Shown: positions 5,596 to 20,739 of the stretch, in pieces
Layout of the letters: each line of letters starts with the position of its first letter
How positions within the stretch are numbered: the first letter of the stretch is position 1
Assembly (NCBI GenBank): GCA_944390195.1
Contig: CALXOZ010000009.1
Coordinates: 1 to 64,000 of the forward strand
Reading direction: 5' to 3'
Length of the DNA stretch: 64,000 nucleotides
Source of the DNA: an uncultured Alphaproteobacteria bacterium
GTDB taxonomy: Bacteria; Pseudomonadota; Alphaproteobacteria; CAAGCB01; CAG-977
Program-made: the position numbers and the translations under genes
Notes under the pieces: model-generated
What the model was told of the DNA's origin: nothing
What the model saw: the letters and a program-made list of their open reading frames with translations, nothing else
Databases searched by the model: none

Positions 5596-6531
5596 AAATA
5601 ATTTTTTCCCGAATGGAATATGCCCTTTCGCAAGGTTGACAGCCTTGTTCGGTAAGCCTCCGATGAAGGTCAGGACGGGATTTGAGGGAGCGACGTTCCC
5701 GACGTTCAGGATTTGGACCGGTGTGTTGATGATGATGCCGTAGGCTCCCCAAAGCAGTGCGCCGGTGAACAGCATTTGCATATATCCGACCGTGCCGACC
5801 GTTACGGCAACATTGTTGTCCTGAAACATATCGAGGCTGTTCAGGTAAGTCAGGACTATTCCGATCGTACCGCAGGACAGAACGATTTGCAGGCTGTTCG
5901 TCAATAAAATCCGGATCGCCGCAAAGCAGGCTTTTTTAAAAGGCGGCAGCGCATAAAAGGTACATAAAACAGGTGAAAGCAAAGTGATCGCGAACAGCTG
6001 AACGAACACGTTAAACAAGCTTGCAAATATTCGCCATAAAAGCAAAAAGTAGATGATGCCGACCGGGATGATGGCAACAGCCAGTTTCAAGCTTGCCCAC
6101 GACACGTCACTCATCATTACGCCGATCTTGTCTAAAACGGGCGTAAAAGCCGTTTCAACGTATGTCAATAAAGTTGCCGTGCCGGAGGAAGTTTTTAAAA
6201 CGGCTTGTCCCTCCGAAGTGATCCGCAGGATTCTGATGACTAACTCCATGCCGAAATGATAAATCCAGAAACAGACACCGCTCCAATACTGAAAGCTCTG
6301 TAATAACGCCGTTGCAATCGAAAGGTCGATAAATTCCCTTAAAAGAGTGTGCGGATTTTCTTGTTTTCCGATTAACATTTCACAAAGCCGATACACGATC
6401 CAAAGCATAAACAGATACGCTAAAAGCGACTTCAATTCGGGCGTTACGGCGCTAAAAAAAGCTGAGCAAAACGAAAGTGTTTTTTGATTGAACACATCAA
6501 AAATCTGACAGGAATAGCACGTTTCAGGCAT
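5542..6531 (-). CDS. TrbL/VirB6-like conjugal transfer inner-membrane protein
   Basis: A 329-residue polytopic protein with several hydrophobic segments (about residues 32-48, 65-90, 150-200, 205-230 and 250-275). The pattern and the GIIINTPVQILN / NPVLTFIGG C-terminal part fit TrbL/VirB6, the inner-membrane channel component of type IV secretion systems. It is shorter than most TrbL proteins, mainly at the C-terminus. Its ATG overlaps the stop of the preceding frame (6524-6526) by a few bases, which suggests coupling to the trbJ-like gene. Its end overlaps the relaxase end in the opposite direction, an unusual tail-to-tail overlap. Confidence 0.7.
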   Translation of the reverse strand: MPETCYSCQIFDVFNQKTLSFCSAFFSAVTPELKSLLAYLFMLWIVYRLCEMLIGKQENPHTLLREFIDLSIATALLQSFQYWSGVCFWIYHFGMELVIRILRITSEGQAVLKTSSGTATLLTYVETAFTPVLDKIGVMMSDVSWASLKLAVAIIPVGIIYFLLLWRIFASLFNVFVQLFAITLLSPVLCTFYALPPFKKACFAAIRILLTNSLQIVLSCGTIGIVLTYLNSLDMFQDNNVAVTVGTVGYMQMLFTGALLWGAYGIIINTPVQILNVGNVAPSNPVLTFIGGLPNKAVNLAKGHIPFGKKLFLPVPFLNHFKQFFLLVN

Positions 6532-6802
6532 TAAGCTTCTCTGTATATTGTTTTTCTTTGAAGTAAATCGGCGTTTCGCAATAAACAGGACGAGTCATAA
6601 AGCCTTGACATAACAGAACGTGCCGCCCGAACGGGATGGATCCCCAATCGGCGACACTCATCAAATCGCGCCCCTCAATGTTTTGAGAAACGGACGAGCC
6701 GCATTTGCTTGATCTTGACAGGCTTTGACGTTTGGCGGTCGTTTTGCCGGTCATTTGAGACAGTTCTTTTTGCGTGTTGAAGTTGTTTTGCGCGTAAACC
6801 AT
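6524..6802 (-). pseudogene. C-terminal part of trbJ-like gene in a shifted frame
   Basis: This 92-codon frame overlaps the end of the trbJ/virB5-like gene in another phase. Its residues (QNNFNTQKELSQMTGKTTAK) continue what looks like the natural helical C-terminus of the TrbJ/VirB5-like protein, whereas the tail of the upstream frame after KLLLFNG turns into basic low-quality sequence. The frame ends where trbL begins, with overlapping stop and start. The simplest reading is one ancestral gene (6524-7454) with a frameshift near 6795-6815. A separate coupled gene starting at ATG 6802 is the alternative. Confidence 0.45.
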
Positions 6803-7454
6803 TAAATAGGAGCAGTTTGTTTTGATTTTCCATAATCGTTAAAGACGTGTTCGTGTCCCGAATGATCGAGCTTGCCGCTTTTGACAGCGTGTTTGCTTCA
6901 GCTTTAACCGCCATGGCGTTCGCCAAACCGTCGTCAACGCTCTTTTTATGAAAGTCCGTGCGGGCTTTCTTGACTTTCCGCCACTGCGCCTTTGTTTTGT
7001 TTGAACCCGTCGTAATGCCCCGCCAGGAATAACTGCCGCCGATTGTGCCGGCAACAGTGTTCAAACCGTTTTGAATGTCGGTGTCGGCAGGCAAATCCAA
7101 CGCCTGCCTGATGTAATCCTGTGCCGTGCAAATGTTCGTGACTTCAAAATTCGCTCCGTTCAAGAGAAACTCCGGCGTAACGCATTGAAGCAAATGATCG
7201 GCGTTTGTGATAAAGCTTTGCGCCGTCAACGCCAGAGAAACCGCGCCGCCGACCGTGTCCGTGATCTGTTTTGTCGCTTCCAGTCCTTCTTTGGTCGTGT
7301 TCCAAAGAGCCTTGCCGTTTTCCAAAATCGCCGCCATTGTCGCGTTTTGCTTGATGCTTTCCGCCAAGCCGTTCGTGTCAATGACAGCCATTTGAGCACT
7401 CGCCGTGCGAGCGAAAAATAAAAGACAAACAGTTAAAAATAGAAGCATCCCCAT
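6675..7454 (-). CDS. TrbJ/VirB5-like conjugal transfer protein, probably frameshifted near its 3' end
   Basis: A 259-codon frame with an N-terminal signal peptide (LLFLTVCLLFFARTASA, cleavage near AQM), then an alpha-helical secreted protein containing a central WRGITTG stretch. VirB5/TrbJ family proteins sit at the tip of the conjugative pilus. The last 45 codons are basic and unlike a pilus protein. The expected helical continuation lies in the frame 6524-6802, which suggests a lesion around 6800. The gene precedes the trbL-like gene, the same order as in Trb-type conjugation clusters. A terminator-like hairpin (7465-7494) separates it from the cas2 end. Confidence 0.6.
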   Translation of the reverse strand: MGMLLFLTVCLLFFARTASAQMAVIDTNGLAESIKQNATMAAILENGKALWNTTKEGLEATKQITDTVGGAVSLALTAQSFITNADHLLQCVTPEFLLNGANFEVTNICTAQDYIRQALDLPADTDIQNGLNTVAGTIGGSYSWRGITTGSNKTKAQWRKVKKARTDFHKKSVDDGLANAMAVKAEANTLSKAASSIIRDTNTSLTIMENQNKLLLFNGLRAKQLQHAKRTVSNDRQNDRQTSKPVKIKQMRLVRFSKH

Positions 7455-7462
7455 TCCTATGC

Positions 7463-7496
7463 AAAAATAACGAAGCTCTTACAGCTTCGTTATTTT
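7463..7496 (-). terminator. Hairpin between cas2 and the transfer genes
   Basis: An inverted repeat AATAACGAAGCT / AGCTTCGTTATT with a short loop, followed on the + strand by TTTT and preceded by A-rich sequence, so it can act in both directions. It would end the long leftward cas transcript before trbJ. Confidence 0.55.
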
Positions 7497-7600
7497 ATGC
7501 CAGGCTTCCGTTATCGTTCAGTTCGGTTTCGGTGCATAAAGGGGAATTATGGTGCTCAAATACACAGATTGTTTTTTTGCAAAACGCGTTGCAGGTTCAA

Positions 7601-7930
7601 TCAAAGAAAGGAAAGTTGTTTGGCTGTTTGTATTTCATTTTTTGAAATTTCACCGACTAAAAGCTCCATTTTTTGATACTGATTTTCCGTAATGACCAGA
7701 ACACGAACGGATCCTTTTGCGGGCACGTATCGCCTTAATCGCATAATGTGTGTTTGAACAACGGCATCGCTACTGCAATATCTGGAATAGACGGAATACT
7801 GCATCATTAAGAACCCGTTTCCGATCAGGTCTTTTCTAAATCCTGCCGCCGCTTTTCTTTCAGATTTGTCCGTTGTGGGCAAATCAAAAAAAACGATCAC
7901 TCTTTTTTGTTGAGATTCAATCGCAGTCAT
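7601..7930 (-). CDS. cas2: Cas2 endoribonuclease, type II-like family
   Basis: A 109-residue Cas2 with the ferredoxin-like start VIVFFDLPTTDK (the Asp of the conserved FDLP motif present) and the central FRKDLIGNGFLMMQYSVYSR. The sequence style (KAAAGFRKDLIGNGF, MQYSVYSR, VLVITENQYQKMELL) is that of Cas2 proteins found with Cas9, not of those usually found with Csm systems. Cas2 dimers bridge two Cas1 dimers in the spacer-integration complex. Its start overlaps the cas1 stop by 14 nt. It is the last gene of the leftward CRISPR locus. Confidence 0.9.
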   Translation of the reverse strand: MTAIESQQKRVIVFFDLPTTDKSERKAAAGFRKDLIGNGFLMMQYSVYSRYCSSDAVVQTHIMRLRRYVPAKGSVRVLVITENQYQKMELLVGEISKNEIQTAKQLSFL

Positions 7931-8816
7931 TAATCAATTCGGGCAGGATCAGTTTTTCCGCATCATTTTCTTTCATTGCCGTGATAAAAGAACAAACCGT
8001 TTCTTCCATAGCATTTATCAGTACGGTTTTCTGTCCGTTAATACGACATTTCAGGTATAACAAAGATAACAATGTTTCTCGGATATCTTTTGTTAAAACA
8101 CTATCAGTTAAAGGCATCATTTTTAATACGGCCCGATCGGTAAAAGCTCTGTAAGGTTCTATTAAATCGTCAGCCAAATTAAAATTATTTAATACGCTGT
8201 GATGATGAATTCCCAGGCTGGCAATCAAACCGTGAGCCGTAATATTATTAATCAACACATTTCTGAAAACAGCGTATCCGTAATCCAGCGCCGCGTTAAT
8301 GGTATCTTCGCTATGTCGAATGAATGTCCGTCCGAACAGACATTCCCAATAAAGTCTGGCGGCGACAGCTTCGGCGTTTTCGGAATCCCCGGAAAGGACG
8401 TTTTTCGATATTTTTTGTAAGATAAGAGCCTTATCAGGATTGACGCTGTTTAAAACGAGACTTTGATTTACGATTTTTTGCTGAATATTCCTTTGCCAAA
8501 GTCTTTTTTGCAACGGTTTGGACATACCTGTTTGTAAAAAAGCAATTTCAGTTTGCCGCAAAGGCTTTCCCACAGGAGACAAGACGCTGACAGGTTTATG
8601 CTTCCCGTTACAAAAAATAACGGTTACGGCTTTTTCAGCCAATTCGGACATCAAAGTGCTTGTCAGAGAAATTTGTAAACTTTCCAGAATGACGACGGCA
8701 ATATCTTCCAACGGAAAGAAGAAAACCTGATCTGTTTGCTGTTGATGAAAACACAATCTGTTGTTGTTGAACGAAAGTTTTCCCGGAGTTTCGAATTTAA
8801 TAATGCGCCAAGACAT
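7917..8816 (-). CDS. cas1: Cas1 integrase, type II-like family
   Basis: A 299-residue Cas1. The N-terminal beta domain begins MSWRIIKF, with IPL-like strands and VIFCNGKHKPVSVLSP, a pattern typical of Cas1 from Cas9 systems. In the catalytic alpha-helical domain the acidic/His residues are visible: Glu in AVAARLYWECLFG, His in GLIASLGIHHHS, and Asp/Glu in LADDLIEPYRAFTD. It should integrate new spacers with Cas2. Together with Cas2 it forms a type II-like adaptation module beside type III-A effectors; no Cas9 or Csn2 is present. AAGGGAA precedes the ATG. Confidence 0.92.
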   Translation of the reverse strand: MSWRIIKFETPGKLSFNNNRLCFHQQQTDQVFFFPLEDIAVVILESLQISLTSTLMSELAEKAVTVIFCNGKHKPVSVLSPVGKPLRQTEIAFLQTGMSKPLQKRLWQRNIQQKIVNQSLVLNSVNPDKALILQKISKNVLSGDSENAEAVAARLYWECLFGRTFIRHSEDTINAALDYGYAVFRNVLINNITAHGLIASLGIHHHSVLNNFNLADDLIEPYRAFTDRAVLKMMPLTDSVLTKDIRETLLSLLYLKCRINGQKTVLINAMEETVCSFITAMKENDAEKLILPELINDCD

Positions 8817-8891
8817 TTTTTTGTTCCCTTAATCATATTCCGATTTTCAGCAAAGCATAAAAGAGGGATTTTTAAATAAATTTTGCTGAAC

Positions 8892-9332
8892 TTAATCGTC
8901 CCCAATGATAGTCCAACCATTTCCGTATGGGTTATTCGGGCTGTCAACGGAATACGGGTTTCCGGCACCGTAGGGATTGTTAATGCTGTCGGGGGAATAT
9001 TTACTTCCGTATTTTCCGTAAGGGTTTGATATGGATTCGGGATCATATTTATTGTTACTTAATTTTCCTCTGTAATTTCCCCGAGAATCATAAAGTTTAG
9101 TCGCATTGTCGGCATAAGGATTGTTAACAGATTTATCGCTGTAGGCATTACCATATTGACCATAAGTGTTATTGATGCTGTTCGGACTGTATTTATTGCC
9201 GTATTGCCCATAAGGATTTGAGACGGAATCCGCGTTATAAGGATTATTCGACAGTTTTCCAAGATATTGCTGAGCCATGACCTGATCAGGGAAAAATAAA
9301 ACAGCGAACAAGAATACAAACAGGAATTTCAT
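8892..9332 (-). CDS. Secreted NPYG-repeat protein inside the CRISPR locus
   Basis: A 146-residue protein with a clear signal peptide (MKFLFVFLFAVLFFPDQVMA, cleaved before QQYLG). The mature part is almost entirely short repeats built on NPYGxYGxxYSPxSINN. About six to eight units are visible, such as NPYGQYGNKYSPNSINN and NPYGKYGSKYSPDSINN, broken by two GKLSNN blocks. Similar Asn-Pro-Tyr-Gly repeat proteins occur widely in Proteobacteria without known function. The ATG at 9332 is chosen because GGAGAAA precedes it; a longer frame would run into the CRISPR array. It lies between cas1 and the trailer end of the array, so it could share transcription with cas1-cas2. A direct CRISPR role is not supported by the sequence. 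Confidence 0.72.
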   Translation of the reverse strand: MKFLFVFLFAVLFFPDQVMAQQYLGKLSNNPYNADSVSNPYGQYGNKYSPNSINNTYGQYGNAYSDKSVNNPYADNATKLYDSRGNYRGKLSNNKYDPESISNPYGKYGSKYSPDSINNPYGAGNPYSVDSPNNPYGNGWTIIGDD

Positions 9333-9420
9333 AATTGTTTCTCCATAAAATCTTTGAGTGTGAGTTATAAAAACGAACAAATAAATATTACGACAACAAG
9401 AAGACAAATCATGTCTGTTT

Positions 9421-9851
9421 GTTTTGCCGCCCTCAAGAAAACAGGGCATGTGAATTAACGGAAGTGACTCGCGGTGAGTCAGTTTTCGAATCCCCAAGAA
9501 ATCGGGGCATGTAAATTTTAAGGGTATTCGCCGGCTGTAAATGCCCTAAGTTTTCCAATCCCCAAAAAATTGGGGCGTATGAAACAACTCTATGTAAAAA
9601 AAGGCGATTAAATTTAGTTTTCCAATCCCCAAGAAATCGGGGCATGTAAATTCCCTGTTACTGGAAAGTAATATGGGTAGGGGTTTTCCAATCCCCAAGA
9701 AATCGGGGCATGTAAATTATTGGCTGGCGGAGAGTTGATTTTAACTTAAGTTTTCCAATCCCCAAGAAATCGGGGCATGTAAATTGAAAAAACTTTTAAT
9801 ATGATACTGAGAACAGTTTTCCAATCCCCAAGAAATCGGGGCATGTAAATT
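9421..9851 (-). CRISPR. CRISPR array, 7 repeats of 36 nt and 6 spacers
   Basis: Repeats start at 9421 (degenerate), 9482, 9550 (degenerate), 9617, 9683, 9750 and 9816. On the + strand the unit begins GTTTTCCAATCCCC and ends GGGGCATGTAAATT with an 8-nt middle, so CCCC/GGGG form a hairpin. Spacers are 25, 32, 31, 30, 31 and 30 nt. Read on the - strand the repeat ends GGGGATTGGAAAAC. This resembles type III/Cas6 repeats, where cleavage under the stem leaves an 8-nt 5' tag (here TGGAAAAC by analogy). Degenerate repeats lie at the left, so the leader should be on the right, next to cas6, with transcription leftward like the cas genes. Confidence 0.97.
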
Positions 9852-9952
9852 CTTTATGCTTCAACCTTTTGATATTTAATATTAAAAATTGTTTTTTTAC
9901 TATAAAAAAACATGACAACACCCCCATTTTTTAGACCGTTCTTTTGTTTTTT
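9852..9952 (-). promoter_or_regulatory. Probable CRISPR leader
   Basis: An AT-rich 100-nt stretch between the last intact repeat and the cas6 stop. It adjoins the conserved end of the array, away from the degenerate repeats, as expected for a leader with the array promoter and Cas1-Cas2 docking site. No -10/-35 pair could be assigned with confidence. Confidence 0.5.
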
Positions 9953-10885
9953 TCATGATAAACGTTTAATTTCATATTTTCCCATGCCTAAGACGGCACT
10001 TTTCCCGATATGGAAATATGTCCCTGTAACCATATACGGATACAATTGTGTTAAATTTCCTTTTAACGTAAATTCACCCATTATGCCCCCCAGTGCAATT
10101 TTCGTTTTTTGACGCGAAGAATAGCGTGACCAATCGAACCAGTGGAGTGTCGCTTGTGTTAAATCCGCCGTTTCAATGTCGGAACGCAATACGTTAAATT
10201 CAATTATTGGAAAAGTCGGTATATGTTGTTTCGCTATGGTTTGCTGGCGGCGAATTACGGCAATCAAAAAATCTCGTGCTGTCAATTTTTCAGCTGAAAC
10301 GGGATGACCCTGATGTTGTATGCGCAAAGGTGTTGTTAATCGGATCTGCATGGCTGTGGTTTTCTGTTCTTCCGGCAGGGAAAAATCGAATTTCGCAGAA
10401 ACAGTTTCCGCATCTGCATCTTCAAAGTCGTATAACAGGGCGATACTTCCGTTTTCAAAAACCTGATGCACTTGGATCAACCGTGCTTGTGTGCGTTCTT
10501 TGGTAAAACCCATATTGCCCGTTTTCGACCACGCCAACAAAATATATGACAGCTTGTCAACAGCGGTGCCGAACAACAAATGATGAAATGTAAAAATCTC
10601 TCCTTGTTTGATGATTTTCTGACCCATCGGCATCGGTTCGATAACATAAGGGTTAGTCATTTCTTCGCCTTTGGAAACAGCAATATATCCGTTTTCAAAA
10701 ACAGCGGCGTAAGGACATGTTGATAATGCGGCGCAACCGGCACAATCTTCTTTTTTTGCCAGACAGGACACTTGGCGCAAAGACTTGCCGAATATACCGC
10801 GTAACGCCGAACCGGCATACACCGGAAAGTTCATGTCCTGCAACGCACGAAACGTCAGGCGTAATTTGATCAAAGGAAATGTCAT
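9953..10885 (-). CDS. cas6: Cas6 pre-crRNA endoribonuclease (RAMP)
   Basis: A 310-residue Cas6 of the large, cysteine-cluster family. The N-terminal RAMP fold includes a cysteine group (CLAKKEDCAGC, then CPY) near residues 45-60. The C-terminal glycine-rich region carries GGIMGEFTLKG and IGKSAVLGMGKYEI, typical of Cas6 repeat-RNA nucleases. It should cut array RNA below the CCCC/GGGG stem. The ATG at 10885 is preferred (GAGGAAG upstream) and overlaps the csm5 stop as ATGA. It lies between csm5 and the array leader. Confidence 0.88.
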   Translation of the reverse strand: MTFPLIKLRLTFRALQDMNFPVYAGSALRGIFGKSLRQVSCLAKKEDCAGCAALSTCPYAAVFENGYIAVSKGEEMTNPYVIEPMPMGQKIIKQGEIFTFHHLLFGTAVDKLSYILLAWSKTGNMGFTKERTQARLIQVHQVFENGSIALLYDFEDADAETVSAKFDFSLPEEQKTTAMQIRLTTPLRIQHQGHPVSAEKLTARDFLIAVIRRQQTIAKQHIPTFPIIEFNVLRSDIETADLTQATLHWFDWSRYSSRQKTKIALGGIMGEFTLKGNLTQLYPYMVTGTYFHIGKSAVLGMGKYEIKRLS

Positions 10886-12123
10886 TTTACTTCCTCGAAT
10901 TCGACAACGCACCACCCGAACGGCAATCTTTCTTTGCCATCGTTCGCAAACCAGTATGTCGTCGCGTGATTATCAAAACGTGCCGGTTTATCTTTTCCTT
11001 GCATGATTCTGATCTTCCGCATACCATCTATTGTCTTGCTTTCCGCGCCACCATGCTTGCCAAGGCAAAGTAAAAACGCTTGTCTCGGTCTTTCATTCGA
11101 TTTTCGGATCCGGTTAAATAAATCCGCCGGAATGCCGTGCGTGTGAACCTGCTGATCTTCCTGATCAGAAAGAATGTCCGTATAAAAATCATTACAGGCT
11201 TTTTGTATGGATGACATATCTTCGCAAAATGATCTATTTTGCATAATTAACAAAGATGATTTAAAAACTGTACCGGGCGGAATGACTTCGATATATGTTG
11301 ATATTCCTTTTTGATCTAAAAGTTTTCCGCTGTTACGTTTGACGTTTTCGGCTGTATCAATGCTGGTTATAAAGGATTCTGTTGCGTGTCCGTCTTCAAT
11401 CTTTAAAGCCTTGAAAGGATCTTCGGTTTGATCTTTATAATTATATAGTGTTTTTTCGGCATCGTTGGCTTTTTGATATAACTCTTTATTTAATCGCACC
11501 CGTTCGTTTCTTGCAGACATCAGGGCCGTTCGGATCGCTCCTTTGATTGAAGACCCCGGAATGTACGGCAAGCCGGTTACGGCATCGGAAATCTGCTTTT
11601 CAATATTGAAACGCGCGAAATCATTGTTTTTGCTGCTGACTTTTCCGAATTTTTCTTCGTACTTCTTTGCAACCTCCCGACAGACGATAGCCCGTTTCGT
11701 TGCCGTTTTGACAATAGCCGCGGCTTTGCTTTTGAAAAAGCTTTGCAAAGCCATAAGCTCTCCTTTGTTCGCTTCTTTAAGTAAAAGTGCTTTTTCCGTA
11801 GGGGAAAGTGCGTCCGATAATTGTCCAGGTGTGAACGTGTACAAATAACTGTCCGGTTTTTTCTCCGGTTCTGATTTTTTCACAGAAATGGTTTGTCTGG
11901 GCAAATCATAAGCGCAAGCGCCACAGTATGTCGATCCTGCCGGATTTTTATATCCACATTCCGGACATATAATAATGGTTTTTTCTTTCTGTTGATCTGG
12001 TTTTGAAGTTCTTTTTTCCGAATAAATGGCATATTCAGTTGGTTCCAAATCCGTAGAGGCTCCGATATGTATGGGCGATAATACGGTGATCTTCAATTTG
12101 TATGTTTTCATAAATTCTGTCAT
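10882..12123 (-). CDS. csm5: Csm5 (type III-A RAMP) with embedded zinc ribbon
   Basis: A 413-residue Csm5. The N-terminus KLKITVLSPIHIGAS and the central GLPYIPGSSIKGAIRTAL are classic RAMP motifs of Csm5. The family caps the crRNA 3' side of the Csm complex. Unusually, residues about 40-75 contain a four-cysteine zinc ribbon (Cys53, Cys56, Cys67, Cys70: CPECGY...YCGAC) between the first RAMP strand and the rest. Csm5 proteins I know lack this. Both ends overlap neighbours as ATGA (csm4 upstream, cas6 downstream), so translation is coupled. Confidence 0.88.
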   Translation of the reverse strand: MTEFMKTYKLKITVLSPIHIGASTDLEPTEYAIYSEKRTSKPDQQKEKTIIICPECGYKNPAGSTYCGACAYDLPRQTISVKKSEPEKKPDSYLYTFTPGQLSDALSPTEKALLLKEANKGELMALQSFFKSKAAAIVKTATKRAIVCREVAKKYEEKFGKVSSKNNDFARFNIEKQISDAVTGLPYIPGSSIKGAIRTALMSARNERVRLNKELYQKANDAEKTLYNYKDQTEDPFKALKIEDGHATESFITSIDTAENVKRNSGKLLDQKGISTYIEVIPPGTVFKSSLLIMQNRSFCEDMSSIQKACNDFYTDILSDQEDQQVHTHGIPADLFNRIRKSNERPRQAFLLCLGKHGGAESKTIDGMRKIRIMQGKDKPARFDNHATTYWFANDGKERLPFGWCVVEFEEVK

Positions 12124-13058
12124 ATCGCTGTTTCCTTTGCCGTTAGTCCGATGACGGGCGCATATCCTTGAAAAACGGTTCTGTCATCTGTCAATGAAAC
12201 ACCTTTTATGCCCTTACCGGTAAATAAAGGGGCTTTATTTGCTTTTTGTTTCGGTGTCAATACTGCTCCGGTATCCATCGTCAACACAGGAATTTTAAAC
12301 GGATTGTTTGATAATGCCGCTTTATTGCCATGCCTGCCAAAACGGACGAAGACTTTATAAAACGATCTGTCCTCATCAAATTCGTTTCTTTCCGGCACGC
12401 ACGGCGCAAGTGTCAGCAATGCCGTATAGTGTGGATTATCAAACGAAATGCGTTTCATTGATTGAACTGAAAACTTGCCGCCGCCGGATGAGGCTTTTTT
12501 ACCGTATCCCGTCAGACCGATCTGTTCAAACAACCCCTTGACTTCATCAGCGGTTATTCGGTTTTCGTCAATGACGGCATATACGCTCAATTCCCCCTGA
12601 TAGTAAAATTGATCCGTCATATAAGCGGAATATTTGCCGCCGCTTGCGTGATTCGTTTCAGGATTGACGCTGTTCGCCGTTTTTAAGGTTTTTTTGATGA
12701 ATAAAACTTCGGCAAAAGAATCTCCCATCTGATTTGTCGGCAAAGCAATCTTATCTGCCGGTAACCATTCGCGGCGTTTGAATTTCTTGCGATTTTTGAC
12801 ATCAAATTCATCGTCTTTTTGCCCTTCTTTTTTATAATACGAAAAGGGCAATACGGGTTTGGGAAAATAGCCTTTCGGAAAGGCGTCCGATAAGACTATA
12901 TACGGGCGGTTGTCCGTATATCCTTCTAATAATGTTGTCAGTCGATCTGACCCGAAACGTTCCATAATCGCCCAACAAAACATACCGAACAGTGTATCTC
13001 CTTTTATTTGTGTATAAAATCCGCCTGTCGGAGCTATGTCAATTTGATATAATTCCAT
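12120..13058 (-). CDS. csm4: Csm4 (type III-A RAMP)
   Basis: A 312-residue Csm4. The N-terminus matches the family, with IAPTGGFYTQIKGDTLFGMF, and later GYGKKASSGGGKF, the glycine-rich RAMP loop. Csm4 binds the 5' tag of the crRNA and contacts Cas10. The ATG at 13058 gives the family start MELYQI and follows GGGACAG; an upstream in-frame start at 13106 would overlap csm3. Its stop overlaps the csm5 start. Confidence 0.88.
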   Translation of the reverse strand: MELYQIDIAPTGGFYTQIKGDTLFGMFCWAIMERFGSDRLTTLLEGYTDNRPYIVLSDAFPKGYFPKPVLPFSYYKKEGQKDDEFDVKNRKKFKRREWLPADKIALPTNQMGDSFAEVLFIKKTLKTANSVNPETNHASGGKYSAYMTDQFYYQGELSVYAVIDENRITADEVKGLFEQIGLTGYGKKASSGGGKFSVQSMKRISFDNPHYTALLTLAPCVPERNEFDEDRSFYKVFVRFGRHGNKAALSNNPFKIPVLTMDTGAVLTPKQKANKAPLFTGKGIKGVSLTDDRTVFQGYAPVIGLTAKETAI

Positions 13059-13071
13059 ACTGCTGTCCCGA

Positions 13072-13713
13072 TTAAACAAATCTGTTTTCAAAAGGTTTGA
13101 CGGCATCCAAATCGGCTTGAATGTCTTTGCCGTCCAGTTTCAATTCTTCGAATTTCACGCGACCGTAACCGCGGGATCCTGATCCGCCTAAAGCGTCCAT
13201 TTCCAACAGTTTCATCGTTCCCAATACCTGCGGGATAACATTTTCGTCATCATATTGTTTAACGGTCAGTTTGAAATCAAATTCCGAACCGGGCAATACG
13301 CGTTCCGTGTTACGCGGATGTTCTGCAGTTCCAGTTATACGGCTGATCATGTTTTCCATTTTAACTTCAGTATAAAGCATTTGCTTTTTGTTGATGGTTT
13401 CTTTCCAACCTTGTGTTAAAAAACAGTCCCAAAATGACAGACGTGCCGGTTTGACATCTTTTTGATCGCCGCTTGATCCGAATAATTTAACAACGATTTC
13501 TGCATTATCGTTACCACCTGTATATAAACGCAGCAAACTGCGCATTTTGCCTTTCAGAGAAGATCCGGGAATGTACGGTTCGTTTGTAGCGGCGTTTTTG
13601 ATGACGGGATTATCCGTTCCGCCGATGTGCATTTCCGTATTCCCCGAACCGATGTGCAATCCCGTAACGACTTTGATTTTTCCGGTGATCATTTTCATTT
13701 CAAATTTTATCAT
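13072..13713 (-). CDS. csm3: Csm3 backbone RNase (type III-A RAMP)
   Basis: A 213-residue Csm3, normal length. It has GKIKVVTGLHIGSG, then GGTDNPVI, where Asp34 matches the catalytic Asp that cuts target RNA at 6-nt intervals, then PYIPGSSLKGKMRSLL and the glycine loop LGGSGSRGYGRV. Target-RNA cleavage should therefore be active. AAAGGAA precedes the start. The gene lies 14 nt after csm2 and 13 nt before csm4. Confidence 0.93.
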   Translation of the reverse strand: MIKFEMKMITGKIKVVTGLHIGSGNTEMHIGGTDNPVIKNAATNEPYIPGSSLKGKMRSLLRLYTGGNDNAEIVVKLFGSSGDQKDVKPARLSFWDCFLTQGWKETINKKQMLYTEVKMENMISRITGTAEHPRNTERVLPGSEFDFKLTVKQYDDENVIPQVLGTMKLLEMDALGGSGSRGYGRVKFEELKLDGKDIQADLDAVKPFENRFV

Positions 13714-13727
13714 GGCAGGAATTCCTT

Positions 13728-14195
13728 TTATTTTGTTGGACGGTATTGTTTGTAAAAGCCCATTATTGCTTCCATAAACAGTTTGGCGTTGTTTAGTGTG
13801 TCTTTGTCTTTGATCTGATTGATCAGTTTGTTGAGAAACTGCTGAAAAGTCTTGTCAACATTTTCACGACCTTTAGCATAGGCAACTTTTGATTTCATCA
13901 TATACACAAAAGGTTCGATATCTTTAAAATCTGTATTTGTCTGTGCGCGTTCGTTCCACATGACCAGTTCATCATAAAAACGGCGAAGCTGTGTCGGCAT
14001 GTTTTTTGTAAGTTGATTTTCACCACGATAATTTTTTTCAATATTTCCTGCATCATCCATTTTATAAGCAATTTTTTTTGCCCATTCAGATGCCGTTTTA
14101 TCAAACAAATCCTTTGTCAAATTTTTGACGTCAAAGTCCAATGGATTTTTCTTTTGAGGTGATGGTTTTAACGTCAAAGTTTTATTATCAGTCAT
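13728..14195 (-). CDS. csm2: Csm2 small subunit (type III-A)
   Basis: A 155-residue, mostly helical, basic protein in the csm2 position. It has the family-like helices TQLRRFYDELVMWNERAQ and a C-terminal LNNAKLFMEAIMGFYKQY. Csm2 (Cas11) forms the inner filament of the complex. The N-terminal 25 residues are polar and probably disordered. It overlaps the cas10 stop by 8 nt. Confidence 0.85.
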   Translation of the reverse strand: MTDNKTLTLKPSPQKKNPLDFDVKNLTKDLFDKTASEWAKKIAYKMDDAGNIEKNYRGENQLTKNMPTQLRRFYDELVMWNERAQTNTDFKDIEPFVYMMKSKVAYAKGRENVDKTFQQFLNKLINQIKDKDTLNNAKLFMEAIMGFYKQYRPTK

Positions 14196-16719
14196 TTTGT
14201 TCCTCTCTTTGTTGGTAAAGCCAAGTGAATAAGGCTATTTTGTAATCCGTTTTGTATTTTGCGATAGCGTTTCCTATTTCTTTGGCTATCGTGTCGGCAA
14301 GAACTTGTTTCTGTTCAGTATCAAAATCTTTTAACGTTTCCACAAAGCGGACGGTTTTATAAACCAGTTTCGAACGCCACATCGCGTTGGAAAGATTTTT
14401 TCCTTTTTCCGCTTCTTGCGCCTGATCGCACAGCGTTTGCAGGCTATAGACATATCCGATTGACAAATTGTATTTTGCTTTCATGTCATCCAAACGGTGC
14501 TCCTCCGTCATCAGGTTATCGTAATCGGCAAAGCTGACCGTTTGTCCGAAGCAACAGACGGCGTTTTTAGTGGCGTTTTCTTCATTCGGATATTTTTTCG
14601 CTTTTTCCAAAGCTTCTTCCGTCATTGTTGACATGGTAATCACATCTTCGCCCGATCCCGTCATGCACATGCCGATCGAAAACGTAATGTCTTCACGATT
14701 ACAGACATATTCTTTGAATTTATTGCGCAGTATCGGAACCATTCTGATCTGGTCAAGCCACGGTCCGATTAAATAAAAATCGTCTCCGCCCGCGAAAACG
14801 GTATAAATGTTTTCCGCATTTTTCTCGCTTTGGCACAGCCACGGCAACCAGATCGTAAAGAAATTGTTCAGTTGGCGGCTTAATCCTGCCAGTGTCGCAA
14901 AAGTCGGTGTTTTAATGCCGGTTTGCAACAAAGATCCCAGATTGTCGATGTCGCCTTTGATGCTCATGACGGCGGATTTTACAACCTTTTTCCCGTCTTT
15001 GACGTAGCAATCAATTTCTGCCAAATCGGAAAACGTTTTGATGTTATTGTTCTCATCGCGCGGCACATAGGCGTTGATGTATCTTCTCGCCTGTCCGTTG
15101 AACAAAGCTTCATCCGCGCTTTCCGGCAAGGAAATATCCCAGCGGCGCAAGGCTTTCTCGGCATTCTTTTTCCACCCGATGTAAAAACCGAAAATATCGG
15201 ATTTCCAACCGCCTTCAACCGGTTCGGCGGATATGGTCATACAAGCCTTTTTTGTCAGATTTTCGCCTAATTGCAAAATGTCCATACAGCTTTGGCAGGC
15301 ATAAGCGGGTTGCCGATCCGAATTTTCTTCCGTGTCATAGTTGTTGACTGCAGTTTCTGCCGGCATTCTGCCGTCAAAACAACAGATGCCCATTTGCTTG
15401 TCATAATTATCGGCGAAAATTTTCATTGCTCCGGCGTTTTCCGCGCATAAATTGAATTTTTGCAATTTCGCCTTGCCCAAAGAACGGAATATCTTTTCTT
15501 GCAAAGCGGCAAATCCTTTTGCTTCAAAATCGCGTTGAGACGCTTCGATTGTTGCTAAACCCAAAGAAACTTCGCCGTAGTATTTCTTTAAAAACCACGC
15601 ATTAAGCTCTTTTTTGATTTTTTCGATTTTTTCAACCGTTGCCGGCGTGTTCGGGGCAACAATAATAAATTTCCCCGCCGCATTCATAATTTGTGAGGTG
15701 GAAGGCAAACCGATTTCCTGCAGCACTTTCAATGCCGCGCATTCGGAAAACAACGATATTAAAAAAGACCGTCCCCGCAACAGCTTGTAGGCGTTTTTGC
15801 GCGTATGCTTGCCGACGTCAAAAATAAAACTCTGAATGCCTGAAACATCGCCTTGAATCAACAAGAATTTTTTCTCTTCTTTGTTGTCCAAAGCCTCTTG
15901 CGTTTCAGTTTCCGTTTCTTTGTGATAACGCCATAAAGCCGTTGCCAAAGCGGCCGTGCTTTTGGAGTGGTCGTACAAAGATACGTCCGCTATTGTGCCG
16001 AATGCCGTCGCGGAAGGAATGTTCTGGGTATAAACGGAATAAAGCGTGTCAAAATGATCCAGATACAAATCCCAATTTTCGCGATCGTGGATTTTTTTGA
16101 CGTCTTCGACAAAAGCGTTCCATAAAGCCAGATATTCTTTTCTCGCTTCCTCTATCGTCAGATGATGCCGCAATTCAGGAAAAATGGCGGCGGGCGATAA
16201 CGGTTTTAACGGATAACGGTATTTCAGCGTGTCGGGTGTTGAATTTTCTCGTTTGTCCGTTTCGGTGGAAAGCTTGTCAAACAAGGGGATTAAGCGGGCA
16301 ATCTGATATTTCTCGCCATCTTTTTTTTCATTGTATTTTTCGTAATCGGAACGTTCGAAAGCACTCGAAAGACGGTCGGCGATACAAACAATTTTTTGTA
16401 AATAAGAGGACGGATTATGATGTGCCGCCGCCGCTCTGATAATGGAATCATCCGTGTCAGTCTGTTGAAAAGGGTAGGTGTCCGCATCGCCTTTGATCGC
16501 GGGCAGGGATTTTTCGATCAAATCAATCGCAATTCCCGTGTAAGCCGCGTGCGTATGCGTAAAGTATCCCTCTTTATCGTTAAAAGGGCAAAATGTATGT
16601 TGATTTTTTTCTTTGACATCCGGCGCAAGTTCAATCTTCGCTCGTTCGGCGAACTTGCCGATGTCATGGATCAAAGCCGCAAAAGCGACCCTGCAAGACG
16701 GATAAAGATATTCGTTCAT
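14188..16719 (-). CDS. cas10: Cas10/Csm1 large subunit with HD and cyclase motifs
   Basis: An 843-residue Cas10. The N-terminal HD nuclease motif is intact (ALIHDIGKFAE, residues about 14-24, then later histidines in FTHTHAAYTG). The cyclase-type Palm has VFAGGDDFYLIG near residues 640-650, with the GGDD that makes cyclic oligoadenylates. A zinc-binding cysteine pair ACQSCMDI lies in the middle. Both target-activated DNase and second-messenger synthesis are therefore expected. Its start overlaps the csm6-like stop (TGATG), so the two are coupled. Confidence 0.95.
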   Translation of the reverse strand: MNEYLYPSCRVAFAALIHDIGKFAERAKIELAPDVKEKNQHTFCPFNDKEGYFTHTHAAYTGIAIDLIEKSLPAIKGDADTYPFQQTDTDDSIIRAAAAHHNPSSYLQKIVCIADRLSSAFERSDYEKYNEKKDGEKYQIARLIPLFDKLSTETDKRENSTPDTLKYRYPLKPLSPAAIFPELRHHLTIEEARKEYLALWNAFVEDVKKIHDRENWDLYLDHFDTLYSVYTQNIPSATAFGTIADVSLYDHSKSTAALATALWRYHKETETETQEALDNKEEKKFLLIQGDVSGIQSFIFDVGKHTRKNAYKLLRGRSFLISLFSECAALKVLQEIGLPSTSQIMNAAGKFIIVAPNTPATVEKIEKIKKELNAWFLKKYYGEVSLGLATIEASQRDFEAKGFAALQEKIFRSLGKAKLQKFNLCAENAGAMKIFADNYDKQMGICCFDGRMPAETAVNNYDTEENSDRQPAYACQSCMDILQLGENLTKKACMTISAEPVEGGWKSDIFGFYIGWKKNAEKALRRWDISLPESADEALFNGQARRYINAYVPRDENNNIKTFSDLAEIDCYVKDGKKVVKSAVMSIKGDIDNLGSLLQTGIKTPTFATLAGLSRQLNNFFTIWLPWLCQSEKNAENIYTVFAGGDDFYLIGPWLDQIRMVPILRNKFKEYVCNREDITFSIGMCMTGSGEDVITMSTMTEEALEKAKKYPNEENATKNAVCCFGQTVSFADYDNLMTEEHRLDDMKAKYNLSIGYVYSLQTLCDQAQEAEKGKNLSNAMWRSKLVYKTVRFVETLKDFDTEQKQVLADTIAKEIGNAIAKYKTDYKIALFTWLYQQREEQND

Positions 16720-18029
16720 CAGTTGTTATCCTTAAATGTGTTCATAAATAAAGCGGCATTTAGCTTGGACTGGGATTCTTCTTCCCCGACAATCAGACGA
16801 AGCTGTTCTATCAGAGAAGTAAAAATAGTTTTTAATTCCTGAGCGTTTTTGACACGGGAAGAGTATCCGTGAATTAAAATAGAGTTGTTGCGTATGTCTG
16901 CAATTATTGCGTCAGTGTTTTGCAGATAAGCTGTTTTTGGATGTTTGAGGTAATCTAAAAAGTCAATGACTTGTTTTCTGCCGAACGGCGGATAAATATC
17001 AGTGTTATCTTTTTTTCTTATGCGGTTGTTTTCCGCAAAATCACGCACTTTGGGATCGGAAGCGGACATGTGATTTGAAATGTATCCTTCTTTAAACAAA
17101 TAAAATTGTCCCAACATTTCCGCAATACGATAAGCGCGAATGGCGGCGTCTTCATATTGGCCTGAATCCAACCGGCGCAAACCGTTCGCATATAAATCAA
17201 ACATCATGTTTAAAACAATTGAGGCGTTTTCCTCCAATTGGTCATGTGATAAAACCTCATGTTTTTTTTCATCGGGTTCGATAACGAATTTTGATAAACC
17301 GCTTATCCAGTTTTGAACCGTCGGTGTTGTGGCAAAGCCGAAAGACGGCATTTCAAAAACGGGACAAATATCGGCGGCGGTTTTATAATCCAAACGATCC
17401 CAAGCGGAATAAAAATCGGCCAGCATTTTGACATTATTGACCGTTATTTTTAATTTTTCTGTCGGTTTTTCAGTCGAAAGCAAAGATTTTGCCGCCGGGA
17501 ATTGCCATGTTTTAAACAAAATCCGACATTGATCTAAAACAGATAAACCGCGTGCGTAAGAAGCGTCAAAATTTTTAACGGTTTCTCCTTCGATCAAATT
17601 TCCGTTCTTATCATTGTTACGTTGAATATAATGGAAGTCGGAAACGCGATAACGCATACCTATAGCATACAATGCCGCGCTCATCGCTTTTGTGCCGTGT
17701 GTAAAATCAATGATGAAATCTTCGGCAGAAAAACCGTTTTTAAATAATGTTTGAAATTTCCCTTCAAAAAATTCGAAACATTTGTCCGCATCGAATTCCA
17801 TGTTTTTTTCCGGCAGGTCTTCAATGAAAACCTTAAGGGAAGCCTCATATTCCAGTTTGATGGCTTCGGCATTTTTTTTGCTGGAACCCGACGGGAAAAG
17901 GATAATGTATTTTACATTAGAAAAATCAATAGCTTTTCTTAATAAACGGTAATATGATTCTGGATAACCGATTTCTTTCGGGTTTCCTTTTCCCACAATT
18001 AAAAATAAGACTTTTTCACAACTAAGCAT
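16719..18029 (-). CDS. csm6: Csm6-like CARF-HEPN ancillary RNase (TIGR02710-like)
   Basis: A 436-residue protein. The N-terminal CARF-like part has VLFLIVGKGNP, IILFPSGSSKKNAE and the ligand-site motif DFTHGTKAMSAAL (about residues 105-120). The C-terminal HEPN RNase motif is R380-x6-H387 in RNNSILIHG. CARF-HEPN proteins bind cyclic oligoadenylate from Cas10 and then cut RNA non-specifically. It is the first gene of the leftward effector operon. The form resembles the TIGR02710 family more than classic Staphylococcus Csm6. Confidence 0.85.
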   Translation of the reverse strand: MLSCEKVLFLIVGKGNPKEIGYPESYYRLLRKAIDFSNVKYIILFPSGSSKKNAEAIKLEYEASLKVFIEDLPEKNMEFDADKCFEFFEGKFQTLFKNGFSAEDFIIDFTHGTKAMSAALYAIGMRYRVSDFHYIQRNNDKNGNLIEGETVKNFDASYARGLSVLDQCRILFKTWQFPAAKSLLSTEKPTEKLKITVNNVKMLADFYSAWDRLDYKTAADICPVFEMPSFGFATTPTVQNWISGLSKFVIEPDEKKHEVLSHDQLEENASIVLNMMFDLYANGLRRLDSGQYEDAAIRAYRIAEMLGQFYLFKEGYISNHMSASDPKVRDFAENNRIRKKDNTDIYPPFGRKQVIDFLDYLKHPKTAYLQNTDAIIADIRNNSILIHGYSSRVKNAQELKTIFTSLIEQLRLIVGEEESQSKLNAALFMNTFKDNN

Positions 18030-18059
18030 AGTATTTCCAATAAAAATAACAAGTTAAAA

Positions 18060-18090
18060 TATGATTTACTGTTTTATAAAAAATGTCAAT
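18060..18090 (-). promoter_or_regulatory. Candidate promoter of the csm/cas operon
   Basis: On the - strand a perfect TTGACA (+ strand 18084-18089) lies about 55 nt upstream of the csm6-like start, followed after 17-20 nt by weak -10 options (AATCAT or CATATT). It falls after the stop of the acidic small gene, suggesting the effector operon has its own promoter. Confidence 0.4.
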
Positions 18091-18107
18091 AAGTATTTAC
18101 CTTATTT

Positions 18108-18275
18108 TTAATTGTATTCTTCAAAAGCCTCTTCATACATGTTTTCGATCATATCAATAAGCGAGCCATATTCATTCTCATAATATTCTGCATCTCTGTC
18201 ATCTTCTTCAACGCCTTCATATCCGTCATCTTCTAATTCTTCCGAATAAAATAAGGTATCTGTATCTGCAAACAT
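18108..18275 (-). CDS. Very acidic 55-residue protein upstream of the csm operon
   Basis: A small protein with 22 Asp/Glu and one basic residue out of 55, rich in Tyr (ELEDDGYEGVEEDD; EYYENEYGSLIDMIENMY). The ATG at 18275 is preferred over 18293 because GGAGAGA sits just before it. It lies between csm6 and the divergent WYL regulator, in the same direction as csm6. No family was recognised. Such composition suggests a binding partner of a basic protein or a DNA/RNA mimic, but that is a guess. Confidence 0.6.
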   Translation of the reverse strand: MFADTDTLFYSEELEDDGYEGVEEDDRDAEYYENEYGSLIDMIENMYEEAFEEYN

Positions 18276-18369
18276 TCTTTTCTCTCCTTGCATTCAACTT
18301 GGGACTGTTATTATGCTAGTACAATAAACAGACAAACTGTGTCGCTCTTTTTTTGGAGAAAGAAAAAAT

Positions 18370-19344
18370 ATGGATGAAACACGTTATTTTAAAAAAATTT
18401 ATGAATTGGTTTTAAAGCTTCAGAATACACGCTCAGGCTTAACAAAGAAAGAAATCGCCGATTTTTTAGGATGTTCTATGAAAACTGTAGAAAGAAAAAT
18501 GGTCGAAGTTGAAAGATGTTTCGGAGATGCCTTTGTAGAAACATCAAGCTATCCCAAAATGTATAAAATTAAATCCATGCAACTTCCGAAAGGTGTCGTC
18601 CTTTCTTCAACGGATATTGCCGTTATTCGTCAAGCGGCGGATTTAATGAAAAAAAATGACAGAGATGAAGAAGCGTCGAACTTAAGACTGGTCGCAGAAA
18701 AATTACAACGCATTCTGGCTCCTGAAAGTAGCAGAGAAGTAGAAGCTTTAATGATCGCCGAAGGAAATGCCCGTCGCCCTGTTCCGCATAAAAAAGTTGA
18801 TATGGATATCGTTTCCGTTCTGCGCGATGCAATAAAAAACTGGAAGGCCGTTCAAATCGAATATAAACCTAAAAAAAGCCAAAAATACAATTCTTATACG
18901 CTTTGTCCGTTTGGAATTCTATATGGAGAAAGAAATCATTATTTGTTGGCTAAACGATATGATTATCAAGATACGGACGATTTGCATTATTATATTCTCT
19001 CGAATATTCGTCAGGTGTGTCTTTTGAAAGACAAGGACTTTTTCGTCCCCGAAGAATTTTCAATAGAAAAACACACAAAAGATTTGTTCGGAATGTATAA
19101 TGAGCCACCGTTTGATGTAGAATGGCTTTTTTCTCCAAAGGCGGCGGGTGAAGCAGAAAAATTTATTTTTCATTCATCGCAAAAAATGGAAAAAAATAAA
19201 GACGGTTCGCTAACCGTTCGTTTTCGTGCGGGCGGATGTTTGGAAATGGCATGGCATTTATACACTTGGTGCGGACAAGTTAAGGTTATAAAACCGGTCG
19301 ATTTCTGGCAACGTGTTGCCAAACTTCGTCAGGAATGGTTTTAA
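18370..19344 (+). CDS. WYL-domain transcriptional regulator
   Basis: A 324-residue regulator. The N-terminal winged helix (GLTKKEIADFLGCSMKTVERKM, about residues 22-43) is followed by a helical linker, the WYL domain (VQIEYKPKK, CPFGILYGERNHYLLAKR) and the WCX C-terminal extension. WYL regulators bind nucleic-acid-like ligands and often control CRISPR and phage-defence genes. Divergent placement 95 nt from the acidic gene suggests control of the CRISPR locus. GGAGAAAG precedes the ATG. Confidence 0.88.
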   Translation: MDETRYFKKIYELVLKLQNTRSGLTKKEIADFLGCSMKTVERKMVEVERCFGDAFVETSSYPKMYKIKSMQLPKGVVLSSTDIAVIRQAADLMKKNDRDEEASNLRLVAEKLQRILAPESSREVEALMIAEGNARRPVPHKKVDMDIVSVLRDAIKNWKAVQIEYKPKKSQKYNSYTLCPFGILYGERNHYLLAKRYDYQDTDDLHYYILSNIRQVCLLKDKDFFVPEEFSIEKHTKDLFGMYNEPPFDVEWLFSPKAAGEAEKFIFHSSQKMEKNKDGSLTVRFRAGGCLEMAWHLYTWCGQVKVIKPVDFWQRVAKLRQEWF

Positions 19345-19357
19345 GAAACTCTTTATT

Positions 19358-19681
19358 TTATTCTTGTGACGACACAGGACGTTGATTTGTCCGTTTTTGA
19401 AAAAGGTATTTTTGACTGATTTCTAACATTCCATTGTTATACAACCGGCGTGCCTGCCAACGGGATAAATTGACGTTTTTTTGTATGACTTTCCAACATA
19501 ACCCTTTGGCTCGTAACCAGATGATTTTTCGTGCGCGCAAATCGTTGATCGACGGCAACAACACATCTGTGGCGTATCGAGCCTTTTCCCGTTCCGTATC
19601 TGTAATATAAGGGGAATCTAACGGATTCTCAGTGATTTCCACTGCCAACTTTAACAACTGTTCGATTTCCTTTTTTTTCAT
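19358..19681 (-). CDS. DUF6362-like helix-turn-helix protein
   Basis: A 107-residue protein whose C-terminal half looks like a helix-turn-helix (IWLRAKGLCWKVIQKNVNLSRWQARRLYNNGM). It resembles the DUF6362 family found in phages and integrative elements of Alphaproteobacteria; its role is unknown. Its ATG overlaps the stop of the truncated virB4 (ATGA), so it belongs to the ancestral transfer operon rather than to the CRISPR locus. Confidence 0.6.
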   Translation of the reverse strand: MKKKEIEQLLKLAVEITENPLDSPYITDTEREKARYATDVLLPSINDLRARKIIWLRAKGLCWKVIQKNVNLSRWQARRLYNNGMLEISQKYLFQKRTNQRPVSSQE

Positions 19682-20607
19682 CGGTTCGCTCCATAGTGTT
19701 TGAGATAGTAAGTCGCCGGATCTTCCGGTTTGAACAGCTTGGCGTAATCAAGGAAACGGACGGCTTTAGCGCCGCCTTTAAAGGCGTTCAGGTAATTGCC
19801 AAGGCAAGTCATATCCGTTTCCAAAAACACGTTGACGCCGTTCCTTTGCATCAAAACGGGGCGTTTCGCTCCCTCGATCCGAGCCCCTTTCGTCAGCACA
19901 AAGTCCGTCTCGCTTTCCGTCAGGTTAAAGCCGTCGATTTCCTCCGGCGTTCCCGCACAGCCGTCATAGAAAAACCTTGTGTGGCAGTTCGTTAAAATCG
20001 TTTCCTTGATATTCAGCGTCTTCAAATCGTTCGTTCCCTGAAACGCCATAAAAATCGCCATTCTTTGCTTTCTTGCGGTTTTAAGCAGTTTCTCGATTTC
20101 CGTTTTCAGAGGATGCGAAGAAAGAAGTGTCGGAGCTTCGTCAACAATCAGCAAAGACGGTTTGCCGTTTTGCGCGTTCTTTTCGATCTTTTTGAACAAA
20201 TGGAAGAATAATGCCGCCGCCGCGTTCGCATCGTCCTTCACGTTATCCAAACCGAACACGTTTAACCGGTTTTGCGCTACGTCAAGCGTGTCTCTGTTCC
20301 CGTTGAACAACTTGGCATTCAATGTGTTTCCTTTAATCCATTTTTCAAGCTTTTCTTTGAACCGCCCGTTCGGAGCCAATTCGTTCGCATATAAATCCAT
20401 GCGTCTGTTGAAACGAGGCTGTTTCAGCATTTCGGACACGAATATCCGAATGTCTTTCTTTTCTTCTTCCGTTTCGGCACAAGTCAGTATCTGCATAAAC
20501 ATATTCAGCGTCGTTTCTTCTCCGGCTCCGCAATCAAACGGGTTCAGACTGATTTTCCCGTCCTGACTGATCTGATGATACGTTCCGCCGACCAAGTCCG
20601 TGAACAC
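19678..20607 (-). pseudogene. 5'-truncated VirB4/TrbE-like conjugation ATPase
   Basis: The 309 codons match only the C-terminal half of VirB4. They begin at the strand following Walker A (GGTYHQISQDGKISLNPFDC) and keep Walker B (SLLIVDEAPTLL), the KTARKQRMAIFMAFQG helix and the SETDFV region. The Walker A loop and the whole N-terminal half are missing. In frame, a TAG lies just two codons upstream of the first GTG, and the tRNA-Thr attachment fragment lies 80 nt further. The coding sequence therefore stops being VirB4 at the element boundary. It cannot be an active ATPase. Confidence 0.75.
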
Positions 20608-20735: not shown

Positions 20736-20739
20736 TAAA

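Follow-up and report, generated by a model that had tools for sequence, protein, structure and literature searches.

How does a CRISPR-Cas locus acquire spacers when its interference genes belong to one type and its adaptation genes look like those of another? This question is raised by positions 7601-18029 of the stretch of DNA analysed here (the window), 64 kb at the start of the 69,159-base contig C9 in the 2.12-Mb draft genome of an alphaproteobacterium, G000, that is 98.55% complete. A complete type III-A effector set here adjoins a type II-clade Cas1-Cas2 pair and an array of 36-nucleotide (nt) repeats, with the genes on the minus strand. A III-A system with a type II-clade integrase is real; it is rare in the sampled part of the phylum, and lactobacilli provide a precedent. 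What is new is a contrast between sister species, namely the source genome and a congener, G005. We propose that the III-A (Csm) system of the window is served by its own type II-clade Cas1-Cas2 and that in G005 a type II-C Cas1-Cas2 writes the III-A array in trans, a reading to which we assign a probability of about 0.6.

A III-A effector set adjoins a type II-clade Cas1-Cas2

NCBIfam, Pfam and PADLOC profile models were scored against the window proteins, with NCBIfam and Pfam calls judged by the model cut-offs (Table 1). In order, the minus-strand genes are cas2, cas1, a small open reading frame (ORF) and, past the array, cas6, csm5, csm4, csm3, csm2, cas10 and the gene of a CARF-HEPN protein; a WYL regulator gene comes next on the plus strand. 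Cas10/Csm1 and Csm2 to Csm5 were above their NCBIfam cut-offs in five of five cases. Cas6 exceeded the cut-off of Pfam PF10040 and gave 25.9 bits with the NCBIfam Cas6 model, below its cut-off of 58.65; a hairpin-bearing repeat (fold z score -2.79) is also present. The CARF-HEPN gene, found with both TIGR02710 and PADLOC, encodes a predicted effector. Reading by eye, we found HDIGKF and GGDD in Cas10 and R-x6-H in the CARF protein, which we take to be the known motifs of the HD, GGDD and HEPN kind. The original prediction, made from the sequence alone, had named Csm-type effector genes (Cas10 with HD and GGDD, Csm2-5, Cas6 and a CARF-HEPN protein), and both its coordinates and its gene calls were right.

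Its view that Cas1 and Cas2 resemble those of Cas9 systems also held. Window Cas1 scored 274.5 bits with the type II model TIGR03639 (cut-off 120), the next NCBIfam model giving 81.8, and the best PADLOC model for Cas2 was Cas2_II. In a tree of 32 Cas1 sequences, window Cas1 grouped with 23 other type II clade rows (support 100/100), separate from all eight type I and III sequences that formed the outgroup; 10 rows of this tree had odd composition, 4 had long branches, and one row had been trimmed of its reverse-transcriptase part beforehand. The type II clade was again supported at 100/100 in a second tree that included a Cas1 from Limosilactobacillus fermentum. An ordinary type III kind of Cas1 was accordingly dropped as a reading. 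Within the clade, window Cas1 falls in a 15-row subclade (98/98) outside which lies the genome's own II-C Cas1. The nearest sequences by identity come from G006 (44%; at a contig edge, with no effector seen) and from the alphaproteobacterial II-C system of G008 (43%; beside cas9). The end branch of window Cas1 is long (1.0), which makes recent capture from any locus seen unlikely. Residues E149, H205 and E220 are invariant in a six-sequence alignment and are presumably the Cas1 catalytic positions.

Cas9 is encoded elsewhere in the genome

The absence of cas9, as first reported, is true of the window, where four Cas9 queries found none at E 1, and not of the genome. Contig C30 carries cas9-cas1-cas2 and a 28-repeat II-C array with a different repeat, GTTGCGGTTTGACTCAAAATAATCATCTGCTATAAT. 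An ungapped scan of positions 4001-21000 outside the array found no anti-repeat scoring 12 or more, in line with the original prediction; the same scan on the II-C locus gave one anti-repeat-like match (score 18). The window locus thus shows neither of two markers of type II membership, a cas9 in the locus and a trans-activating CRISPR RNA anti-repeat. A nearby Cas9 locus with the same repeat had been named as a finding that could account for the module: the II-C locus exists, yet its repeat differs, its Cas1 is 37% identical to that of the window (over 221 residues) and its Cas2 40% (over 75).

The presence of cas9 in the same genome allows an explanation in which the cis Cas1-Cas2 is active but borrows the II-C Cas9 in trans to choose prespacers flanked by a protospacer adjacent motif (PAM). 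Streptococcus pyogenes Cas9 is described as a protospacer selector (PMC9048733; here and below, published work is cited from selected passages). The low identity of the two Cas1 proteins and their different subclades argue against such borrowing, as does the account of type III adaptation in the same review, which is PAM-independent with Cas1-Cas2 being enough; the type III spacers described there centre on 36 bp. We consider Cas9 borrowing improbable. The review also makes the need of type II Cas1-Cas2 for Cas9 a weaker objection than had been stated, the clade of the Cas1 proteins reviewed aside.

A congener has the III-A locus without cas1-cas2

Among 12 genomes of the order, window Cas10 was matched at E 1e-5 in G000 and G005 only. 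The G005 III-A locus is orthologous, with identities of 78% for Cas10, 86% for Csm3, 82% for Csm4, 76% for Cas6, 70% for Csm5, 76% for the CARF protein, 74% for the WYL regulator and 55% for Csm2, and its array has 19 repeats, 18 of them identical. No match to cas1 or cas2 was obtained at E 0.001 within 40 kb of this locus. A Cas1 family search found two Cas1 genes in the G000 assembly and one in that of G005, the latter being the II-C Cas1 on contig C15. G005 therefore has what is expected of a trans-fed array, a III-A locus lacking cas1-cas2 and another module in the genome.

The search of the 12 genomes with the G005 array also turned up an orphan III-A-type array on contig C22 of G000 (16159-17345, equal to L091:10160-11346). 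Its 18 repeats, GTATTTCAATCCCCTAAAAGTCGGGGCATATAAATT, are identical in 17 cases, and of its 17 spacers 12 are 32 nt long and the other 5 are 31 nt long. Around it, no cas gene was matched at E 0.01 in 20 kb, the only hit being a 25-residue piece of the WYL query. When the window array itself was the query (E 0.01), nothing else was found, so that relatives can escape a repeat search of this sort.

III-A and II-C spacer lengths in the two genomes

The window array (consensus on the plus strand GTTTTCCAATCCCCAAGAAATCGGGGCATGTAAATT) contains five repeats that differ from the consensus at no more than one position and two degenerate ones (8 and 7 mismatches), the most degenerate at the low-coordinate end. 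Its spacers measure 25 (at the degenerate end), 32, 31, 30, 31 and 30 nt, which agrees with the 36-nt repeats and mostly 30-32-nt spacers first described. The 25-nt spacer was left out of the length comparisons, which used a permutation test with 100,000 draws. The 22 III-A-type spacers of G000 (5 from the window and 17 from C22) have a mean of 31.5 nt and its 27 II-C spacers one of 29.9 nt, with p at 1e-5, the lowest value that the test can give; the five window spacers alone (mean 30.8 nt) also differ from the II-C ones (p 0.004). In G005, the means are 29.89 nt for 18 III-A spacers and 29.92 nt for 13 II-C spacers (p 1.0). At type II-clade Cas1 loci, 39 arrays have a 36-nt consensus (3 arrays with other consensus lengths were excluded); 577 of their 632 spacers are 30 nt long and 16 are 31 nt or longer. 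All 17 spacers of C22 and 3 of the 5 in the window reach at least 31 nt, and five other type III arrays have spacers that span 31-39 nt.

Spacer length hints at which module wrote an array. On the simplest reading of these lengths, the II-C Cas1-Cas2 wrote the III-A array of G005, and another module wrote the III-A-type arrays of G000, where window Cas1-Cas2 was the only other candidate writer found. It is also conceivable that the II-C module on C30 writes the III-A arrays of G000 in trans and that the cis Cas1-Cas2 is a passenger. Such trans writing by II-C has been demonstrated for VI-B arrays in Flavobacterium columnare (PMC8092290), the G005 array looks trans-written by II-C, and 30 nt is the length of 2 of the 5 window spacers that remain once the one at the degenerate end is set aside. 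The excess length of the G000 III-A-type spacers over the II-C ones is contrary to it, and the reading frames of window Cas1 and Cas2, which are open and retain candidate catalytic residues, do not suggest a passenger. We regard this explanation as unlikely, if the strongest of the alternatives.

The two genomes may then hold orthologous III-A loci of one genus that are served by two type II-clade integrases, II-C in trans in G005 (29-30 nt) and a cis Cas1-Cas2 in G000 (30-32 nt), with III-A repeats that share the 36-nt size and leader-end polarity of II-C repeats and are transcribed in the opposite sense. We advance this fuller statement tentatively, at slightly less than even odds; if it is correct, a Cas9-family adaptation module serves a type III effector without a Cas9 in cis, and II-C also cross-feeds III-A. 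The contrast offers a direct natural test of a type II-clade integrase writing type III arrays without Cas9, and of what sets spacer length.

Leaders and array polarity

The 100-base flanks at the leader ends were compared by local alignment, with scores set against 500 shuffles. The window leader aligned with that of C22 (score 52, shuffle maximum 45) and with that of the G005 III-A array (50, maximum 35), and the C22-G005 score of 35 was reached by 7 of 500 shuffles. The trailers of the three arrays do not align, as 68, 110 and 484 of 500 shuffles reached the pair scores. Between III-A-type leaders and four II-C leaders, most of 12 scores were near chance; the lowest shuffle counts, 1, 4 and 11 of 500, were those of the G005 III-A leader with the II-C leaders of G000, G002 and G007.

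We place the leader at the AAT(T) repeat end in both III-A and II-C arrays. For the III-A arrays, this placement follows from the leader similarity found there and from the position of the variant or most degenerate repeat, which in the window, C22 and G005 lies at the opposite end. For the II-C arrays, it follows from an other-end repeat that is degenerate (G007, G006), carries one mismatch (G002) or is truncated (G005), together with conserved leader-end flanks, which run into cas2 within tens of bases; a one-mismatch repeat at the leader end of the G005 II-C array runs counter to it.

Three III-A repeats fold well on the minus strand, with z scores of -2.67 and -2.89 beside that of the window repeat given above. 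The window repeat, the sole one folded both ways, has a z score of -1.08 on the plus strand, and that of the II-C repeat is -1.05. The window array is thus probably transcribed on the minus strand. Leader-directed TTGAC and TATAAT boxes occur in the four II-C repeats read from the same genus, and the III-A repeats fold on the strand opposite to that of these promoter-like boxes. The polarity matches that described for the VI-B and II-C arrays of F. columnare (PMC8092290), with the leader at the same repeat end and opposite senses of transcription. At L003:4772-6608, a II-C repeat with TTGACT-N16-TATAAT places a promoter-like pair in every repeat, directed towards cas2.

Proposed working and points against it

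On our proposal, window Cas1-Cas2 would insert 30-32-nt spacers at the leader end (the cas6 side) of the 36-nt III-A repeats, in both the window array and the C22 orphan array, and would do so without any Cas9 encoded in cis. The array would be transcribed from the leader on the minus strand, and Cas6 would cut at the repeat hairpin. The Csm complex with its CRISPR RNAs (crRNAs) may act against transcripts, and the predicted output would come from Cas10 and the CARF-HEPN RNase. In G005, where the III-A locus has no cas1-cas2, the II-C Cas1-Cas2 would write the III-A array in trans.

Several observations weigh against this proposal. The window spacers are shorter than those of C22 (30.8 and 31.7 nt, p 0.014), so two modules may have written the window array. 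In L. fermentum a type II-clade Cas1 accompanies 34-39-nt spacers, which means that the Cas1 clade alone does not set length. The repeat of a conventional III-A locus (L062) folds with a z score of -1.04, and such a fold is therefore not a general III-A mark. The G005 III-A leader matches its own II-C leader at chance (score 17, reached by 227 of 500 shuffles), though the two arrays would share one integrase. No protospacer was found that would show the origin or the PAM of any spacer. G005 may have filled its array with a cis cas1-cas2 that it then lost, and both assemblies are drafts (G005 about 98% complete, G000 as given above). Finally, the window array is short and has two degenerate repeats. 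This last point, with the decay of the surrounding element (see below), would fit arrays that are relics, with no current III-A spacer writing and lengths that reflect lost modules. The near-identical repeats of C22 (17/18) and G005 (18/19) speak against relics, as does the fact that no spacer match between different arrays was seen, and we judge this the least probable of the explanations considered.

Searches for spacer targets

Phages and plasmids searched by blastn held no match to the G005 III-A array, and phages held none to the G000 II-C array. The C22 array matched 131 phage records (E 10 or below), which were judged to be chance; 128 of them were at 80-90% identity and 94 were Escherichia phages, and the 3 records at 95% identity or more lie outside the rows on which that judgement rests. 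Four single-spacer 24-mers had 0 matches in viral contigs. A scan of 117 spacers against 1.72 million bases of partly overlapping loci matched none at full length except within its own array; a G007 II-C spacer had one partial match of 22 nt. Matches of the G005 array outside arrays in 12 genomes of the order (E 0.006-1), including one in G009 of 85% over 33 nt, were likewise attributed to chance. Viral scans with Cas1 and Cas10 found no relative. At least three C22 spacers (after positions 10160, 10905 and 11040 of L091) read as a ribosome-binding site with an ATG on the plus strand, so that minus-strand crRNAs would be antisense to message starts.

Precedent and rarity

A reading of the locus as a unique hybrid is not supported. 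The PADLOC collection names a Cas1_IIIa family (PDLC01741), whose model gives 158-207 bits with six type II Cas1 proteins and 214 bits with window Cas1, and which is not among the best 25 models for two conventional III-A Cas1 proteins. The best PADLOC model for window Cas1 is Cas1_II (319 bits). On L. fermentum plasmid CP033373.1, III-A effectors adjoin a type II-clade Cas1, as in the window, with no cas9 annotated or matched in the 24.7 kb read and a 36-nt repeat ending in GAAAAC. This Cas1, a 236-residue fragment, differs from that of the window in preferring Cas1_IIIa (306 bits) to Cas1_II (245), and its array in the spacer lengths given above. The second tree makes it sister to window Cas1 with weak support (51/79), from one such row, a fragment. 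The Cas1_IIIa model and the L. fermentum locus mean that III-A loci with a type II-clade Cas1 are already in databases, and a uniquely new hybrid was dropped as a reading on the strength of the latter.

In Pseudomonadota the pairing looks rare. Of 398 sampled genomes, 29 match PDLC01741 at E 1e-40, G000 included; the other 28 have 29 loci, with a cas9 match in 29/29 and cas10 or csm3 in 0/29 (E 1e-6; stretches of 3-19 kb). A class search found cas9 at 14/14 loci of other genomes. Besides that of the window, the order has ten Cas1 loci; of the seven checked for effectors, six lie beside cas9 and one at a contig edge. A genome scan with a Cas10 alignment had at least six distant loci among the matches listed.

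Known systems share parts of this arrangement. II-C loci also have 36-nt repeats and short, near-constant spacers, and differ in their Cas9 effector, in spacers of mostly 30 nt and, within the genus, in repeats with the TTGAC/TATAAT pair. In F. columnare an RNA-targeting system is likewise served by a type II integrase; its effector is the Class 2 protein Cas13b, and its trans writing was confirmed by cas1 deletion (PMC8092290), whereas for G005 we infer it. Type III loci that lack cas1-cas2 and rely on a co-resident module, as in G005, have been surveyed (PMC8482600): a PAM was seen in 95% of type III clusters without cas1-2 and in 8% of those with their own, and the donors were type I modules, whereas the one Cas1 found in G005 is II-C. 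The same survey judged type II spacers less compatible with type III effectors. Type III Cas1 is not monophyletic (PMC3150331), and the II-A and III-A Cas1 proteins of L. salivarius are about 25% similar (PMC11288051); the 2025 classification of CRISPR-Cas is given in PMC12669027. Among the titles and passages returned by a literature search, we recognised no paper describing a II-C module that writes a III-A array. L062 (G049:C85) is a conventional-looking III-A locus with a 35-nt repeat and 31-36-nt spacers on a 7-kb contig of a same-class assembly, and is possibly a contaminant.

Genomic context

The III-A block is flanked on one side by virB5/virB6-like genes (by eye) and on the other by a virB4-like P-loop gene of the TraG type; an integrase, a relaxase and a GmrSD gene lie at a greater distance. 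The small ORF between cas1 and the array had no family match in Pfam or PADLOC.

Table 1. Features of the III-A locus and its flanks, with positions in the window.
Feature	Position	Strand	Evidence
cas2, type II-like	7601..7930	-	TIGR01573 77.5 bits, over cut-off; best PADLOC model Cas2_II 137.9 bits
cas1, type II clade	7917..8816	-	TIGR03639 274.5 bits; trees
Small signal-peptide-like ORF, NPYG repeats (by eye)	8892..9353	-	
CRISPR array, 7 repeat positions of 36 nt	9421..9851	- (probable transcript strand)	
Leader	9852..9951	-	Alignable with leaders of C22 orphan array and G005 III-A array
cas6	9953..10915	-	PF10040 48.5 bits (cut-off 25)
csm5 with zinc ribbon	10882..12123	-	TIGR01899 59.1 bits; zinc ribbon PF13240
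csm4	12120..13106	-	TIGR01903 123 bits
csm3	13072..13713	-	TIGR02582 214 bits
csm2	13728..14195	-	TIGR01870 62.5 bits
cas10/csm1 with HD and GGDD	14188..16719	-	TIGR02578 628 bits
CARF-HEPN protein (Csm6/Csx1 kind)	16719..18029	-	TIGR02710 85.1 bits, over cut-off; PF09670; PADLOC CARF-HEPN 154 bits
WYL-domain regulator	18370..19344	+	PF13280, PF25583; 74% identical copy beside G005 III-A locus
Cargo block, approximate extent	7434..19673	.	About 12.2 kb between virB5-like and virB4-like genes

In G007 the same site is empty or otherwise occupied. On contig C8 of that genome (L110), the virB4-like and virB5-like genes abut, with window matches ending at 847 and 851. On its contig C59, the window-like flank continues to 7555, and a HipA-like ORF (by eye; L115:13706-14971) lies between an 801-residue virB4-like gene and virB5. 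The window virB4-like gene (19678-20735 region) retains the C-terminal 309 of those 801 residues, and the window is without about 7.8 kb that is present in G007:C8 between the virB5 pieces. The state of the site in the G007 copies and the gene decay indicate that the III-A block sits as cargo in a conjugative element, now broken, at a site used for cargo. An assembly chimera was dropped as an explanation on account of the empty and otherwise occupied G007 copies and of the repeat kin in C22 and G005.

A stretch resembling a tRNA 3' end (about 20690-20735, by eye) follows the cut virB4-like gene, and together they likely mark the end of a decayed integrative element. ARAGORN called no tRNA gene anywhere in the window, and no exact repeat of 14 or more is shared by 20601-20760 and the rest of the window. 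Near the integrase, a GmrSD-type restriction gene at 632-2383 (PF03235 112.8 bits; PADLOC HEC-05 171.7 bits) is perhaps part of the same element.

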